Source of the DNA: Leptolyngbya sp. 'hensonii'
GTDB lineage: Bacteria > Cyanobacteriota > Cyanobacteriia > GCF-001939115
DNA: 36,018 nucleotides
Assembly (NCBI RefSeq): GCF_001939115.1
Contig: NZ_MQTZ01000064.1
Coordinates: 1 to 36,018 of the forward strand
Direction of reading: 5' to 3'
The translations under genes and the position numbers were made by a program. Positions 15,261 through 24,646 of the stretch are shown here, in pieces (position 1 is the stretch's first letter; each line of letters opens with the position of its first letter). The notes below the pieces were generated by a model that did not search any database, was not told the DNA's origin, and saw nothing but the letters and a program-made list of their open reading frames with translations.

Positions 15261-15647
15261 TCAAGACGGAATCTGAATCAGCTCAACTTTATAGCCATTG
15301 GGGTCTTCCACAAAAGCGATGACCGTGGACCCATGTTTCATCGGCCCCGGTTCACGGGTGACTTTGCCGCCGCGCAATCGGATGTTGGCACAGGTTGTGT
15401 AAATGTCTTCGACCCCGATCGCAATATGCCCATAGCCCGTTCCCAGGTCATATTGTTCCACACCCCAGTTGTAGGTTAGCTCCAAAACAGTATGATCGAC
15501 TTCATCCCCGTAGCCCACAAAAGCCAGGGTGAACTCTCCACCGGGATACTCTTTCTGTCGCAGCAATTTCATCCCCAGCACGTCACAGTAAAACTTGAGA
15601 GAGTCTTCCAAGTTGCCCACTCGCAACATTGTGTGCAGTAATCGCAT
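15261..15647 (-). CDS. gloA: Glyoxalase I (lactoylglutathione lyase)
   Basis: This 128-residue enzyme isomerises the hemithioacetal of methylglyoxal and glutathione to S-lactoylglutathione in the cytoplasm (EC 4.4.1.5). The four metal ligands fall at exactly the positions known for the Escherichia coli enzyme: H5, E56, H74 and E122. The length is that of the Ni/Co-dependent bacterial type. ATG at 15647 ([10 protein letters not shown]) has GGAG 8 bases upstream and is preferred to TTG at 15659. It sits between signalling genes, 30 bases after the degenerate kinase gene, so co-transcription with the kinases is possible. Confidence 0.95.
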
Positions 15648-15677
15648 CGATCGCTCCAAATAGTGTCCCCTCCAATT

Positions 15678-16805
15678 CTATGAAACCCGGTGTAAAGCAG
15701 GGAGAAAAAGATAAAAATGGGTCCAGCCATTTTCGCTCATGACTTGGATACTTCCTTCCAGTCGTTCCACCAGCTTCTTAACTAGCGTCAGCCCCAAACC
15801 ACTGCTTCCCTGGTTCCATCGATCGCCCCCTGGAACCCGATAGAATTGATCAAATAACTTGGGAATCACTTCACTTGCAAGGTCAGCTTCATTACTGACG
15901 GCAATCATAACCCCTGATATCCCATTTTCCCCCCCAGGGTTTTGCAGGGGAGCCCGATAAATTTCTAAGATGATTTTCCCCTTGGGAGCTGTATATTTAC
16001 AGGCATTATCCAGCAATTCTTCCAGCACATACTGTAAGTCCGCCCGATCGGAGAGCAAGTCCGGTAAATAGGGAGAAATCGTCACTTGCAGGCTTTGTTG
16101 ACGATCTTTAACCCGACGATAGAAAGGTTCAAGCACAATGGGAGCCCATTTCTGCAGGGTCAGAGATTCCAGTCTGGGCACTCGCCCATGGGCTGCTAAT
16201 TTTTGTAAGAGAATTAAGTCATTGAGCAGCTTAATTTCACGGGTGCATTCTGTTTCCAGCAGATCAAGATATTTTTTCTGTTGTTCTAAGGTTGGGATTC
16301 CCCGTAACATTTGAATAGCAATTTTAATATTGGTAATGGGTTCTCTCAGTTCATCCGCAGCAGTTTCAAGAAATTGCTCCTGAAAAAAATTGGTTTGATT
16401 TAATTGCACAATTCTGTCCTGTAATTGTAAGAAAACAGTCTGTTTCTTAAGGCGAACGGCGATCGCAGTTAAGAGATCAGCCTGTTTGAAGGGTTTGGCA
16501 ATATAATCATCTGCGCCCAAATTCATTCCCTGACGGAAATCATGGGTGGTCCCTTTCGCAGTTAAAAAAATGAAGGGAGTGAGGGCGGTGCTGGCATTGT
16601 TCCGGATCTGGGACAACACAGCATGGCCGTCTAACCCCGGCATCAGAATATCACAGATAATCAAGTCAGGCAGGAGCTGAAGTGCTTTTTGGAGGCCGAT
16701 TTGCCCATTTTCAGCTCCAACTGCCTCAAATCCCTCTGTATTGAGTAATTCAACAATATTTTCTAGTAAAGAGAATTCATCTTCAATGACAAGGATTTTC
16801 GGCAT
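15678..16805 (-). CDS. Receiver plus degenerate histidine-kinase protein (probable pseudokinase)
   Basis: The 375-residue protein starts MPKILVIEDE and has a normal receiver (D52 in ICDILMP, T82, K104). A HisKA-like helical hairpin and a HATPase_c-like domain follow. In the H box, AADELREPITN stands where SHELRTP is expected, so the phospho-accepting histidine is replaced by aspartate (D151). The G1 box is also lost: VSNEADL stands where D-x-G-x-G is expected. The N box (ELLDNACKY, N267) and G2 box (SSGLGLT) remain. It is probably unable to autophosphorylate and may act as a phosphorylation-dependent scaffold or regulator. The ATG overlaps the end of the CBS-PAS-PAS kinase gene by 23 bases, implying translational coupling and joint function. 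Confidence 0.88.
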   Translation of the reverse strand: MPKILVIEDEFSLLENIVELLNTEGFEAVGAENGQIGLQKALQLLPDLIICDILMPGLDGHAVLSQIRNNASTALTPFIFLTAKGTTHDFRQGMNLGADDYIAKPFKQADLLTAIAVRLKKQTVFLQLQDRIVQLNQTNFFQEQFLETAADELREPITNIKIAIQMLRGIPTLEQQKKYLDLLETECTREIKLLNDLILLQKLAAHGRVPRLESLTLQKWAPIVLEPFYRRVKDRQQSLQVTISPYLPDLLSDRADLQYVLEELLDNACKYTAPKGKIILEIYRAPLQNPGGENGISGVMIAVSNEADLASEVIPKLFDQFYRVPGGDRWNQGSSGLGLTLVKKLVERLEGSIQVMSENGWTHFYLFLPALHRVS

Positions 16806-18831
16806 GATCACCTGATACTTTCCCAGCAGGGAGCGTTACTGTAACCAGAGTCCCCCTGCCCGATTCACTTGCAACTGCAATATGGCCATGATGTAAATTT
16901 ACACATTGTTGCACGATCGTCAATCCTAAGCCTGTACCGGGTATTGTCCCCACATTAGTCCCACGCACAAAGGCAGTAAAGAGTTGTTTCTGGTCTTCCA
17001 TGGCAATGCCAATGCCATGGTCCTGGACCTGGATCACCAATTTTTCAGGATCACAGGTCAGTGTGAGTGAGACTTCCCCGCCTTCAGGAGAATACTTGAT
17101 AGCATTGGAAACGAGATTGATCAAAATATAGGTGAGAAGTTTTTGATCCAGACAAAAAAACTCACAATTTCCCAGGGAGGCAAACTTCAGAACATGCTGC
17201 GGGCCGCTCTGCAACTGGAAATCTTCCAATAAGGCATGACAGAATTCAATTAAATTCACAGGCGCGGGATTAAATTTTAGCCTTCCAGCTTCTGCTTGAC
17301 CCACAAACAAAACATCACTTAAAACTCTTGCGATCTGATCTACAGCATCAATAATTCTTTGCAACCGCAATTGTCGTTTTTCCTCCGTCCATTGCTGACC
17401 ATATCGTTGTAGAAGTTCAGTAGATGATAAAATCGTGCTCAGGGGGGTGCTAAACTCATGGGAAACGAGGGTAATAAATTGGGACTTGAGCTCGCTCAGC
17501 TCCCTTTCCTGGCGCAGGGCACTGAGGATTTCAGCTTCCGCCTGTTTACGATCGCTGATATCAATGCCGGTGCCCCAAATCTCCCACCCCGGCACCGGAA
17601 ATTTCTCACAGATACTGGACCAGGCGATCGTTTTAACCTGGCCATCTTTGCAGGTAATCGCCCATTCCCAATCCCGATAATACTTGCCTCGTCTGGCCCA
17701 CTCGACTAGCATGTGCTGGCGATAGGTTGGATCTGGATAAAGCAGCTCCATGGCTTTGGGGTTGTCCACAATCTCTGTTGCTGTATAGCCAGTGATCCTT
17801 TCACACTCTTGATTCCAGGCAATGATCTGCCCTGCGGCATTGAATGCATTCAGCATTACAGGCATGTTTTGCAACACCATGTGCAATCGCTCCTCACTTT
17901 CTCGGAAAGCCACTTCAATGGATTGGCGGTTGGCAATTTCCTGTTGTAACTGCGAGATTGTAGCGCTGAGTTCAGCCGTTCGCTGATTCACTCTGGCTTC
18001 CAGGTCAAGGTTCAATCGGCGCAGGGACAATTCTGCCTGTCGTTGTTCTGTAATATCCTGGACAACTGAGATGCTGAGGCGATCGCCCTCTGGCGTGGTG
18101 ATGACGACACAATTCTGGACAGCGTCCATTAGACTGCCATCCTTTTTAATGTACTGAAACGTTAGATTATTGGCGTAACAGTTACGCCAGAATTCGTCTC
18201 CCATGGTGTGAAAGGATTGAGCTGACTCAGAGGTCATGAACTGGTCTGCTCTCAACCCGATCACCTCTTCACGGTGGTAGCCCATGACCTCCAGCCACTT
18301 CAAATTGACATAGCAAAAACATCCCTCTTCGTTCAAGGAGTGCATCATCACAGGGGCATGTTCATAAAGTTGACGAAATCTGGCTGCACTCTCCTTGAGG
18401 GCCAGTTCCACCTGGCTGGCTACAACATCCAATTGTTCCAGATTCAGGGCCTGGAGTACCGAAGCTTTGGTAATCAAACCCACTACCTGTCTGGCAACGT
18501 TCACTACAGGGAGATAGTGAATGTGGGGATGCTGGATTAATCTGAGGACAAAAACAGTATCTGCAGCAGTAGCCTCAAACAGAGTCAGATAGCGGGTCTG
18601 CATCATCGCTGCAACGTCGATCGCCTTCAAGTCAAGGCCCAATTTCACAGCTCGCATCAGGTCTTTTGTGGTGAATAGACCCACAAGCTGCTGGTGGGTC
18701 ACCACTAGCAGGCAGCAGTTCCCAGACTCTTCCATCAGCATCAGGGCCTCAAATAGGCTCGTGTCTAACTCAATGATCATGGGCTTGGTATTGACCCAGG
18801 GCAAGATGGATAGCATCAGTTCTGATGTCAT
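16783..18831 (-). CDS. CBS-PAS-PAS sensor histidine kinase
   Basis: The 682-residue soluble protein begins with a pair of CBS domains (about 5-130), which in other proteins bind adenine nucleotides. A PAS domain (about 148-265) comes next, then a coiled coil (270-310), a second PAS (about 314-430), HisKA with H458 in VSHEFSTPLS, and HATPase_c (NLVSNAIKY, DHGIGI, GTGLGL). All catalytic motifs are present. The CBS pair suggests energy-status sensing, and PAS domains may add redox or ligand input; this is inference. ATG at 18831 is chosen over TTG at 18849; neither has a strong ribosome site. It overlaps the following degenerate kinase gene by 23 bases. Confidence 0.9.
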   Translation of the reverse strand: MTSELMLSILPWVNTKPMIIELDTSLFEALMLMEESGNCCLLVVTHQQLVGLFTTKDLMRAVKLGLDLKAIDVAAMMQTRYLTLFEATAADTVFVLRLIQHPHIHYLPVVNVARQVVGLITKASVLQALNLEQLDVVASQVELALKESAARFRQLYEHAPVMMHSLNEEGCFCYVNLKWLEVMGYHREEVIGLRADQFMTSESAQSFHTMGDEFWRNCYANNLTFQYIKKDGSLMDAVQNCVVITTPEGDRLSISVVQDITEQRQAELSLRRLNLDLEARVNQRTAELSATISQLQQEIANRQSIEVAFRESEERLHMVLQNMPVMLNAFNAAGQIIAWNQECERITGYTATEIVDNPKAMELLYPDPTYRQHMLVEWARRGKYYRDWEWAITCKDGQVKTIAWSSICEKFPVPGWEIWGTGIDISDRKQAEAEILSALRQERELSELKSQFITLVSHEFSTPLSTILSSTELLQRYGQQWTEEKRQLRLQRIIDAVDQIARVLSDVLFVGQAEAGRLKFNPAPVNLIEFCHALLEDFQLQSGPQHVLKFASLGNCEFFCLDQKLLTYILINLVSNAIKYSPEGGEVSLTLTCDPEKLVIQVQDHGIGIAMEDQKQLFTAFVRGTNVGTIPGTGLGLTIVQQCVNLHHGHIAVASESGRGTLVTVTLPAGKVSGDHAENPCH

Positions 18832-20698: not shown

Positions 20699-22243
20699 TC
20701 ACTCGATCGAGTCGGAGACTGGCATGAATTTTCGGGAAATCACTCCTTCTGCTTCAACCAATCTGGCAACGACGGGAACCACAACTTTGAACACGGTACC
20801 TTTACCCACCTCACTGGTGACTTCAATTTTGCCCTGATGCAACTCTACGCATTGGTGGACAATAGCCAGCCCTAGCCCTGTTCCGGGAATATTGCCCACA
20901 TTACTGCCCCGACGAAAGATACTAAACAGCCGTTCCAGATCTGCTGGGGGAATCCCAATTCCCTGATCCGCAATCGAAAAATGAACTGCTTGGGGTTCAC
21001 AGACCAAGTTGACGAAAACCTTGGAACCCGAGGGTGAGTATTTAATGGCATTGCTGATTAAATTGGTCAGGATATGTCTGAGCAAATTCTCATCCAGTCG
21101 GTAGCACTGTCCCTGGGATCCTGGATGGCTGAAAATAATCTGGTGGGTGTCTCCCGCCTGCAACTGCATTTCCTCAATCAGCCCATGGCAGAATTCCAGC
21201 ACATCTAAAAGGACCGGGTTAAAGGGTAATTTACCAGCTTCAGCCTGATTAAACACCAGGACATGATTGAGCAGATGGGTCATCCGCTTCACCCCATTCA
21301 CAATATGGCGAAACCGCAATTGATTTTTCTCAGTGGAGACCTGATGGCTGTATTTCTGGAGCAGTTCCACTGAAGAGAGGATAGTCGTCAGAGGAGTCCG
21401 AAATTCATGGGAGACAATGGACAGGAAATTTGATTTCAACTCATTCAGCTCTTTCTCCCGCTCCAGGGTTTGCAAAATTTCTGCTTCAATCCGCTTACGC
21501 TCGGTCACGTCCCGCACATTGCAGACAAAGCCCCCATCATTCAAAGCTGTAATCAACAGTTCCTGGTAGAAGATCTCCTGGTTCAGGCGGCGGGCTATTA
21601 ATTCACCCCGCCAGTGACCGTCTCGCTGAATAGCTGGTTCAACCCATCTCCAGAGGGAGCCAAAACCAGAGTGCTGATGGAGCGCATCCAGGGTTGTTCC
21701 GAGAATGTCATCGGCAAACTGATAACCGTATAGATTCAGAAAAGCCTGGTTGACATAAATGTACTCCTGTCGGTCATTCAAAATCGCAATGCCTTCCATG
21801 GAGGCTGCCATTGCCGCCGACTGTTGATATAATACCTGCTGAATTTGCGATCGTTCGATCGCATACCGAATCGTACGAATCAGTAACTCTGGTTGAATCT
21901 GGCCCTTGACCAGATAATCCTGAGCCCCCTGTCGTAAGGCGGCCAGACCAATATCGGTATTGTTCAGCCCCGTCAACACCACAATAGGAAGCTCAGGGGC
22001 TGCCGCCCGTAGTCCAATCACACTCTCTAAACCCTGGGCATCCGGCAAAGACAGATCGGACAAGATAATCTCAAAAGGTTCCTGGTGAATTGCCGCAATT
22101 GCTGCATCAAGTCGTTCTACATGGCTAACAGTCCAAGTCAGAACTCCAGCCTCCTCCAGAGTTTCCTGTAGCAGGTCTGCATCAGCCGGATTGTCTTCAA
22201 CCAGGAGAATCCTCAAGTCTTGCTGCATAACACTACTGGCCAT
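20699..22243 (-). CDS. REC-PAS hybrid sensor histidine kinase
   Basis: About 514 residues from the ATG at 22243: receiver (about 9-130, D63 in LSDLSLP, T91, K113), PAS (about 138-248, ending DVTERKRIE), HisKA with H279 in [10 protein letters not shown], and HATPase_c ([21 protein letters not shown]). All motifs are intact and no membrane segment is present. The start overlaps the stop of the Rcp1-like regulator by 11 bases; an ATG at 22228 just after that stop is the alternative, and neither has a good ribosome site, consistent with translational coupling. Its kinase core closely resembles that of the CBS-PAS-PAS kinase (both have SSVELLQ/SSTELLQ, FCHxLxE and [15 protein letters not shown]), pointing to duplication within the island. 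Confidence 0.92.
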
Positions 22244-22685
22244 TCGGGGGAAGTTTAACCGCTGCCAGCCAGAAAGATTCAATCAACCGGATAATGCCAA
22301 TGAACTCTTCCAAGCCAACTGGCTTGGTAACGTAGCAATTGGCGTGCAACTGGTAGGTTTTCACAATGTCTTCCTCAGCGGAAGAAGTCGTGAGCACCAC
22401 GACGGGAATGGTATTCAATTCGGGGTCTGCTTTAATTTCTAAGAGAACTTCCCGTCCGTCTTTTCGAGGTAAGTTCAAATCTAAGAGAATTAAATCTGGA
22501 CGAGGAGCCTCGGTATAATCTCCTTCCCGGCGCAAAAAGGCCAGGGCCTCTACCCCATCTTCGACCACACTCAGGTTGTTGAGCACCTTACTTTCACTTA
22601 AGGTATCCACCGTCAGGTCAGCATCACTGGGAGAATCTTCCACCAGGAGGATTTCAATAGGTCTAACCGATTTATAAGAAATCAT
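22233..22685 (-). CDS. Rcp1-like single-domain response regulator
   Basis: The 150-residue receiver has D16/D21 near the acidic pocket ([12 protein letters not shown]), phospho-acceptor D69 in [14 protein letters not shown]99/T100 and K121 in [10 protein letters not shown]. This sequence style is that of Rcp1-type regulators, partners of cyanobacterial phytochromes and phytochrome-like kinases. There is no output domain. Its ATG overlaps the TGA of the upstream CHASE3 kinase in an ATGA arrangement, so the two are coupled and probably cognate; the kinase H box ([11 protein letters not shown]) is likewise of the phytochrome-like type. Confidence 0.93.
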
Positions 22686-24607
22686 ACCATCGCCTCCAAA
22701 AGGACTTCGGCTTGAGGTTCATAGCGATCGGGAAGGGCAACATAAAACGTCGAGCCCTGCCCCACCTGAGATTCGACCCAGATACGCCCCTGATGCAGCT
22801 CTACAATTTTTTTGCAGATGGCTAATCCAATCCCGGTGCCACTGTATTTGCGGCGAGTGTGCAGCCGCTGGAAGAGAATAAAGATCCGATCGGTATATTG
22901 GGGATCAATGCCAATGCCATTGTCCTGGATGGAAAAGACCCACTCTGTGGCCTGCTGGGTTGCCGTAATGTGAATCACGGGTGGATCCTCTCCCCGATAC
23001 TTGATCGCATTGCCGATCAGATTTTGCACCAGTTGGGTAAGTTGTGTGACATCAGCCAGGACCGTGGGGAGTGGATCATAGGTAATTGTGGCGTTATTTT
23101 CTGAGATCCCGATCTCCAATGTCTTGCACACCTGCTGCACCACCTGATTACAATCGACTGGTGTCAGTTGCAATGTCTGTCGGCCCACCCGCGAATACAT
23201 CAACAGGTCATTAATCAGTTGTTGCATCCGAGATGCCCCATCCACCACATAGTTGATGTACTTTTCCGCCTTTTCATCCAGTTGACCTCGATATTTCTTG
23301 GCCAGCAGTTCTGTATAGCTGGCAACGGTTCGCAAGGGTTCCTGCAGATCATGGGAAGCAACGTAGGCAAATTGCTCCAGTTCCTGATTGGAGCGCAACA
23401 ATACTCCATTTAACTGATGGAGTTCAGCGGTTCGCTGTTGAATCCGTTCTTCCAGTTCGGCATAAACCTGAACATTTTCTATCGCCACAGCAGTGGTATC
23501 TGCCAGGGCCTGCAGCAACTTCACCTGGTCCACCTGAGGCTGATGGGGTTCTACCCAGTAATTCCCGATCGCCCCAATCGGCTGCATCGTCCGAATCGGC
23601 ACCATGACCATACTTTTCACGAAGGTCTGCTGATAGACTTCCTGGGGAATGCGGGCATCCTGCAAGATATCTTCGATCACCGCAGCCTGACGATTTTGCA
23701 TGGCCCAACCGCTAATGCACTGGTCTATGGGAAACCGTTCCCCTTTCCAGAGGGGGGCGATCGCATTCTCCTCAATGTAGTAGCACTGATCCTGTTCCCG
23801 CAAAACCAGGGTCGCGCCGTCAGCCCCAGTCAATTCCCGGGCCGCCTGCTTCACCACCGTCAGGATTGTATCCAGATCCCTTGCCATAGAGAGTTTCTGG
23901 ACTGCATTGACCAATTGTTCCATCCCGTGGGTGTAGCGTTCCAGTTTCTGGTTACTTTCCCGTAACGATCGTGCCTCCCGGTTCAATTGCAGAATTATCC
24001 CCGTAATCAGCAGAATCTGGAGCACCACACTCCCCACTGTGATCCAGGTAGCCAGGTCTCCCTGTTGTTCCTCATAAGAAGTTCGCTGATCCAGAAGCAG
24101 TCGCTGCTCGGATCGAAGCACGGTTGCAATGGCCCGAATCTCATCCATCAACTGCTTGCCCCGACCTATCTCCACGATTTTCTGCGCAGCTTCAAACCCC
24201 TGGGTCTGGCGGAGTTCAATGGTTTGCCCCATATTGAAGACCTTAGCCTGAACCCGCGATTGCATCTCCGTCAGTCGTTGTGCCTGGGCGGGCCGATCCC
24301 TGACTAAGGTGGCGAGCAGTTCTAACTCAGGTACGATCTTTCCAGTTGCTTCATCATAGGGCTGGAGGTATTGCTGGTTTCCCGTCAGCAGGTACCCTCG
24401 CTGTCCAGTCTCCGCATCCTTGAGATGGGACATCACCAGATCAATTTGCTCCAGGGTTTGATGGGCCTGCCGAACCTGCCTTGTGGTTTCGTGCAGTCGC
24501 CTCAGGCTGAAGTAGGAGAGCAGGGCAAGCCCGACTAAGGTTGCGATCGTAATTCCAAATCTAACTGTATTGAGCTTATCTACAGACCATTTCAAAGTCA
24601 GTCCCAT
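22682..24607 (-). CDS. CHASE3-GAF sensor histidine kinase of phytochrome-like type
   Basis: The 641-residue protein has membrane segments at about 15-34 and 187-207. They flank a mostly helical extracytoplasmic CHASE3 domain (about 36-185, with the motif [14 protein letters not shown]). A GAF domain follows (about 240-380), then HisKA with H419 in [12 protein letters not shown] and HATPase_c ([21 protein letters not shown]). The GAF domain lacks an obvious bilin-binding Cys-His context, so light sensing is not supported. ATG at 24607 has AAGG about 9 bases upstream and is preferred to TTG at 24613. It heads a compact four-gene run down to 18947. Inverted-repeat element C lies 40 bases upstream. 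Confidence 0.92.
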
Positions 24608-24646
24608 GTTCAAAGACCTTAAATCACGGTTGGCAATGAGACGTAG

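Follow-up and report, generated by a model that had tools for sequence, protein, structure and literature searches.

A candidate receiver-gated pseudo-histidine kinase encoded beside an intact kinase in Leptolyngbya sp. 'hensonii'

Described systems and the layout of P0001

The domain order of the protein studied here, a receiver (Rec) followed by the DHp and CA domains of a histidine kinase (HK), is shared by LvrB of Leptospira (8vc9), a Rec-controlled histidine kinase (Rec-HK). Receiver helix α5, the linker, and DHp helix α1 of LvrB are described as one helix, and linker lengths in the class are reported to favour steps of seven; LvrB is fed by an upstream histidine kinase, LvrA, has a phosphoacceptor, His161, and autophosphorylates (PMC13269768). 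Worked cases of pseudo-histidine kinases are few, chiefly DivL of Caulobacter. According to the published account, DivL has a HisKA/HATPase fold in which the phosphoacceptor is replaced by Tyr550, does not need its CA domain for activity, and binds the receiver DivK~P (PMC4211667). The CdgK–CdgS pair of Anabaena consists of a kinase encoded in one operon beside a receiver-GGDEF protein and is reported to control c-di-GMP; CdgK is a hybrid CHASE-PAS-GAF kinase with an Hpt domain, and the available part of the report mentions no pseudo-kinase for this system (PMC9927289).

We analysed a 36,018-nucleotide stretch of Leptolyngbya sp. 'hensonii' DNA (contig NZ_MQTZ01000064.1, positions 1 to 36,018), referred to below as the window. 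An open frame on the minus strand (15678..16805) runs without a stop for 375 codons from an ATG at 16805, with a GTG at 16811 as a possible alternative start, and encodes the 375-aa protein P0001; the prediction that the gene is intact was borne out. Three Pfam domains, all above their cut-offs, were found on this strand: Response_reg (residues 4–115, 16461..16796), in which alignments place D52 and K104, both present; HisKA, the DHp domain (residues 142–204, 16194..16382; 41.5 bits against a cut-off of 26.9); and HATPase_c, the CA domain (residues 253–370, 15696..16049; 61.4 bits). The Rec-DHp-CA order of an LvrB-type Rec-HK is therefore present, by Pfam assignment, in a single chain.

In an AlphaFold2 model of P0001 (16-sequence alignment, pLDDT 85.3, pTM 0.59), receiver α5, the linker helix, and DHp α1 were predicted to form a single continuous helix of residues 108–168 (16302..16484, minus strand), resembling the fused helix of LvrB. 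The nearest solved folds to the model included YycG/WalK, CusS, DivL, and full-length LvrB. DivL (4q20) matched with a Z of 23.5 and an rmsd of 2.4 over 223 aligned residues. Full-length LvrB could be aligned over 351 residues with 20% identity, and the rmsd of 22.2 over this length implies that the domains are placed differently in the P0001 model and in LvrB.

Phosphoacceptor and G1 positions in the full-length family

The H box of P0001 reads LETAADELREP. Asp151 (codon GAT, 16353..16355, minus strand) occupies the place of the phosphoacceptor histidine, as the original prediction had read from the AADELREP segment. Pfam assignment, alignment, and structure comparison agree on a histidine kinase fold with a residue other than His at the phosphoacceptor position, a feature shared with DivL. 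LvrB, in contrast, has His161 where P0001 has Asp. Judged from the sequence, self-phosphorylation of P0001 on the usual histidine cannot occur, since that residue is absent. P0001 is thus a Rec-HK by descent and architecture and a pseudo-histidine kinase by acceptor loss; it is not an active Rec-HK, because Asp151 replaces the phosphorylatable His.

Full-length-type matches (E ≤ 1e-75) were found in 32 of 388 genomes of the class, and this search, together with further ones, yielded an alignment of 33 full-length proteins including P0001; a stop-containing copy from genome G246 was excluded from the trees. Histidine is present at the H site in 25 of the 33 proteins, the rest having Glu (4), Asp (2), Gln (1), or Leu (1), so that no single replacement residue is fixed. 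DivL differs from the P0001 family both in this respect, its Tyr being near-constant, and in input, which is by PAS domains in DivL and by a receiver here. A published census of HisKA domains gives a background of 0.9% without His (722 of 76,471; PMC12632262). The eight His-less (H-less) proteins among 33 therefore exceed what chance would give, all the more so as the closest homologue of P0001 also has Asp.

That homologue, G179a, comes from another family, is 63% identical to P0001, and uses the same GAT codon. Because an independent genome carries the identical Asp codon, a sequencing error was rejected. On the 33-row tree, G179a is the sister of P0001 (support 99/98, end branches 0.44 and 0.24). 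As to whether the aspartate is conserved in homologues, it is shared with this closest homologue only, while the other H-less relatives have Glu, Gln, or Leu and most of the family retains His. Parsimony on the tree required at least four changes between His and non-His; a single clade of the seven Asp/Glu/Gln rows is nonetheless compatible with the data (p-AU 0.50), so all seven may go back to a single loss.

Other H-less or paired copies were seen along the way. Two of the eight Rec-HisKA-HATPase proteins inspected in the source genome lack His; the second (L214:2808-3950, G000:C5:48861-49892) has the H box FALPRALTSP, with Arg at the H site, and a relative, L030, has Gln there. Genome G179 holds Asp-type and His-type Rec-HK copies tail-to-tail (L123:7881-10420), a natural test of hetero-partnership. 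Upstream of its Asp copy lies a gene for a 1099-aa protein with TPR-S and SLATT_1 domains (L123:4233-7529), a kind of protein that occurs in defence-like systems.

The N box (N267, A268, K270) and the G2 box (G336, G338) of P0001 are intact, and their persistence had been correctly foreseen. The G1 position, on which the protein had been described as lacking its box, does read NEADL (residues 305–309, 15879..15893, minus strand; placed by family and CusS alignments), but the loss cannot be tied to the missing histidine. All 33 full-length members, 25 of them His-keepers, begin G1 with Asn and continue with x-[A/G/S/V], and this form is also present in all three His-keeping GAF-HK paralogues of the source genome. 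CusS of E. coli (7zp0), a membrane sensor kinase that provides the best match to the P0001 core among solved structures and that, unlike P0001, keeps its His, has Asn at this position too (VENPGTPI). Since His-keeping relatives and CusS share the Asn, this form of G1 is old and is no evidence for a dead kinase; as a mark of a pseudokinase it was rejected. More particular to P0001 are the Leu for Ile and the Ala for Pro that follow (NEADLA versus the commoner NxAEIP).

The spacing from K104 to the H site is 47 residues in all eight H-less proteins and in 24 of the 25 proteins with His (32 of 33 in the family). The connection between receiver and DHp thus keeps its register despite the lost histidine. 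The suggestion that the receiver serves as the switch fits the model, in which a complete receiver is joined to the DHp by a single predicted helix of conserved length.

Relatives without a CA domain and the gene neighbourhood

Another gene of the source genome, located between two Rec-HK genes (L135:11937-12758, G000:C47), encodes a receiver-DHp protein of 242 aa that lacks a CA domain and has Gln at the H site. When this protein was used as a query (E ≤ 1e-50), matches were found in 74 of the 388 genomes. A short frame was present in 71; judged by open-frame length, the other three (G065, G027, and G093) matched solely via a full-length protein. No plasmid relatives were found at E 1e-50. 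Among the 53 matches whose DNA was read, a subset of those in the 388-genome search, the H site is occupied by Gln in 26, Glu in 14, Asp in 4, Val in 3, His in 2, and Met, Leu, and Ile in 1 each, with 1 gap; one Gln row, L156:1-663, is cut by the end of its locus and is likely to be a member of a different Rec-HK subfamily, and without it Gln accounts for 25 of 52. His is absent from 50 of the 52 readable rows. The codons read show that Asn, Tyr, Arg, and Pro, all single-step changes from His codons, do not occur at this site.

Residues of the docking face are largely kept in these proteins: an acid at H+1 in 43 of 53, Arg at H+3 in 37 of 53, and Pro at H+5 in 40 of 53. The spacing from the K104 position to the H site is 51, 58, or 65 residues, one class modulo 7, in 42 of 51 rows without His (a count that, like that of neighbours below, includes L156:1-663 and the gap row). 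Like P0001, the Rec-DHp proteins combine a receiver with an H-less DHp and are often encoded immediately after a kinase of the same type; unlike P0001, they have no CA and fall across a branch with 100/99 support from the full-length clade.

In the window, the P0001 gene is overlapped from upstream by that of P0002 (16783..18831, minus strand), a CBS-CBS-PAS-PAS-HisKA-HATPase kinase whose H, N, G1, and G2 boxes are all intact, in keeping with its earlier description as a normal CBS-PAS-PAS kinase; P0002 is the probable phosphodonor. The ATG of P0001 sits 23 nt within the 3' end of the P0002 gene, whose stop is at 16783. Of the predicted translational coupling, the overlap is the part that the sequence shows. 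Further upstream on the same strand are genes for a Rec-GGDEF-EAL protein, P0003 (18947..20692), which shares 56% identity with P0001 over the receiver, and for a Rec-PAS-HisKA-HATPase kinase, P0004 (20699..22282), of the same SHEF-type subclass as P0002. LvrB, too, has an upstream HK that feeds it, and the juxtaposition of a kinase and a receiver-GGDEF protein recalls CdgK–CdgS. The operon is preceded, at 20699-24613 on the minus strand, by genes for a Rec-PAS-HK, a 150-aa single receiver, and a CHASE3-GAF-HK, which makes one long two-component cluster. On the other side, a gene on the same strand (15261-15659), which we take to be glyoxalase I-like, starts about 20–30 nt past the P0001 stop and, given this short gap, may be co-transcribed with P0001.

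A histidine kinase gene lies directly upstream on the same strand in 4 of the 8 full-length H-less cases, in none of the 25 His-keepers, and in 26 of the 51 Rec-DHp rows without His. The difference between the first two groups (Fisher p 0.0017) stays suggestive, because the rows are related and provide just two to four independent pairs on the tree. The kinases upstream of the four full-length H-less genes, those of the window and of genomes G376, G027, and G093, have SHEF[RS]TPL H boxes and a D-x-G-x-G motif. G179a has no upstream HK, three copies in a related genus, g3, are stand-alone or without a readable flank, and the flank in G055 is too short to judge its neighbour. In G027, a kinase, an H-less Rec-HK, and a Rec-GGDEF-EAL protein follow one another in a tightly packed array; the same three kinds of gene occur in the window in another order.

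We found no description of cyanobacterial H-less Rec-HK or Rec-DHp proteins in the openly licensed literature, and no characterised Rec-DHp member. Tentatively, cyanobacteria may hold many response regulators of a class that seems not to have been described, in which an H-less DHp, with or without CA, serves as the output; Gln, Glu, or Asp stands for His, the helix is in heptad register, and the gene often follows that of an intact SHEF-type kinase. Such proteins could work as subunits whose docking is switched by phosphorylation (or that dephosphorylate receivers). They would then parallel DivL, with a receiver as the gate and in large numbers, and P0001 would be their full-length form.

Maintenance and possible roles

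Direct dN/dS estimates bearing on maintenance come from the related genus g3. For its three H-less copies, values were 0.071–0.077 for the whole protein, 0.035–0.051 for the DHp (versus 0.034–0.052 in His-keepers where computable), and 0.131–0.195 for the CA (versus 0.024–0.140). For the window/G179a pair, dN/dS was computable in the CA part only, since synonymous sites were saturated elsewhere. On a fixed tree, no significantly faster evolution was found in H-less branches for the DHp (DHp/Rec ratio 1.62 versus 1.28, Mann-Whitney p 0.29), nor was CA found to be significantly faster after His loss (CA/Rec ratio 1.96 versus 1.75, p 0.93). On the branch of P0001 itself, the DHp/Rec branch-length ratio reaches 2.42, which is high. 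P0001 and its H-less relatives appear, from these comparisons, to be under maintenance rather than decay.

Because the histidine is lost while P0001 and many relatives appear maintained, its probable role is switchable docking, not enzymatic catalysis. With moderate confidence, we view it as a receiver-gated pseudo-histidine kinase, with the architecture of LvrB and a DivL-like principle, that serves the upstream kinase and has binding, not phosphotransfer, as its output. The gene order points to P0002 as the enzyme that probably phosphorylates the P0001 receiver, presumably at D52. The signal would then travel down the helix, as in LvrB, and alter a DHp-CA dimer that has become unable to accept phosphate. 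The DHp docking face, with its kept H+1 acid, H+3 Arg, and H+5 Pro, may as a result be offered to another receiver or kinase, in the way DivL meets DivK~P. A candidate client, guessed from gene order, is the neighbouring P0003, which would act in c-di-GMP turnover. The idea that P0001 dimerises with its coupled kinase was not favoured, because the two proteins belong to different kinase subclasses and because Rec-DHp relatives beside the same type of kinase have no CA. Here the histidine is lost in a family with receiver input, often beside an active kinase, and a related class is without the catalytic domain. The H-less series provides a natural set in which to study the function of a DHp unable to carry phosphate, and bears on whether two-component systems use non-catalytic DHp domains as regular outputs.

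The receiver alone might matter, P0001 being a phosphate sink or buffer for P0002 with DHp-CA as a dimerising, solubilising tail. Conservation between P0001 and G179a is indeed highest in the receiver (72% versus 57–58% for the others), the Rec-DHp relatives do without CA, and the F box and ATP lid have been partly lost in the g3 copies. A mere tail would, however, drift more than the DHp and the helix register do, DHp dN/dS in the H-less g3 copies being as low as in His-keepers, and we regard this explanation as unlikely.

The docking role favoured above could also give way to a catalytic one, in which Gln, Glu, or Asp at the His position enters a partner receiver and promotes its dephosphorylation, much like the catalytic Gln in CheZ or Rap proteins. 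The strong bias at the Rec-DHp H site towards Gln, Glu, and Asp over Val, Met, Leu, Ile, and His, even with one Gln row doubtful, and the missing Asn, Tyr, Arg, and Pro speak for such a receiver phosphatase or anti-kinase. No catalytic residue is fixed, however, and H+4, where HisKA phosphatases usually have Thr or Asn, is Glu in P0001 and Val, Gly, Gly, Glu, and Thr in other H-less full-length lineages; this activity appears quite improbable.

We consider it more doubtful still that the P0001 CA acts as a kinase in trans, phosphorylating the His of a heterodimer partner such as a homologous Rec-HK or a GAF-HK. The N and G2 boxes are intact, the source genome has GAF-HK paralogues with 38–44% identical cores, and G179 holds its Asp copy beside a His copy; against this, the H-less g3 relatives have an incomplete ATP lid, the Rec-DHp relatives have no CA at all, and P0002 is of another subclass. 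The view of P0001 as a His-type Rec-HK allele in decay, for which one could cite the 25 homologues that keep His and the stop-broken homologue in G246, is largely refuted and hardly tenable, given the open frame, the Asp shared at 63% identity, the purifying selection in H-less relatives, and the lack of significant acceleration in DHp and CA. The G246 homologue itself (L120, G246:C49:2901-3695), which is of the His type and contains two in-frame stops, does look like a truly decaying copy.
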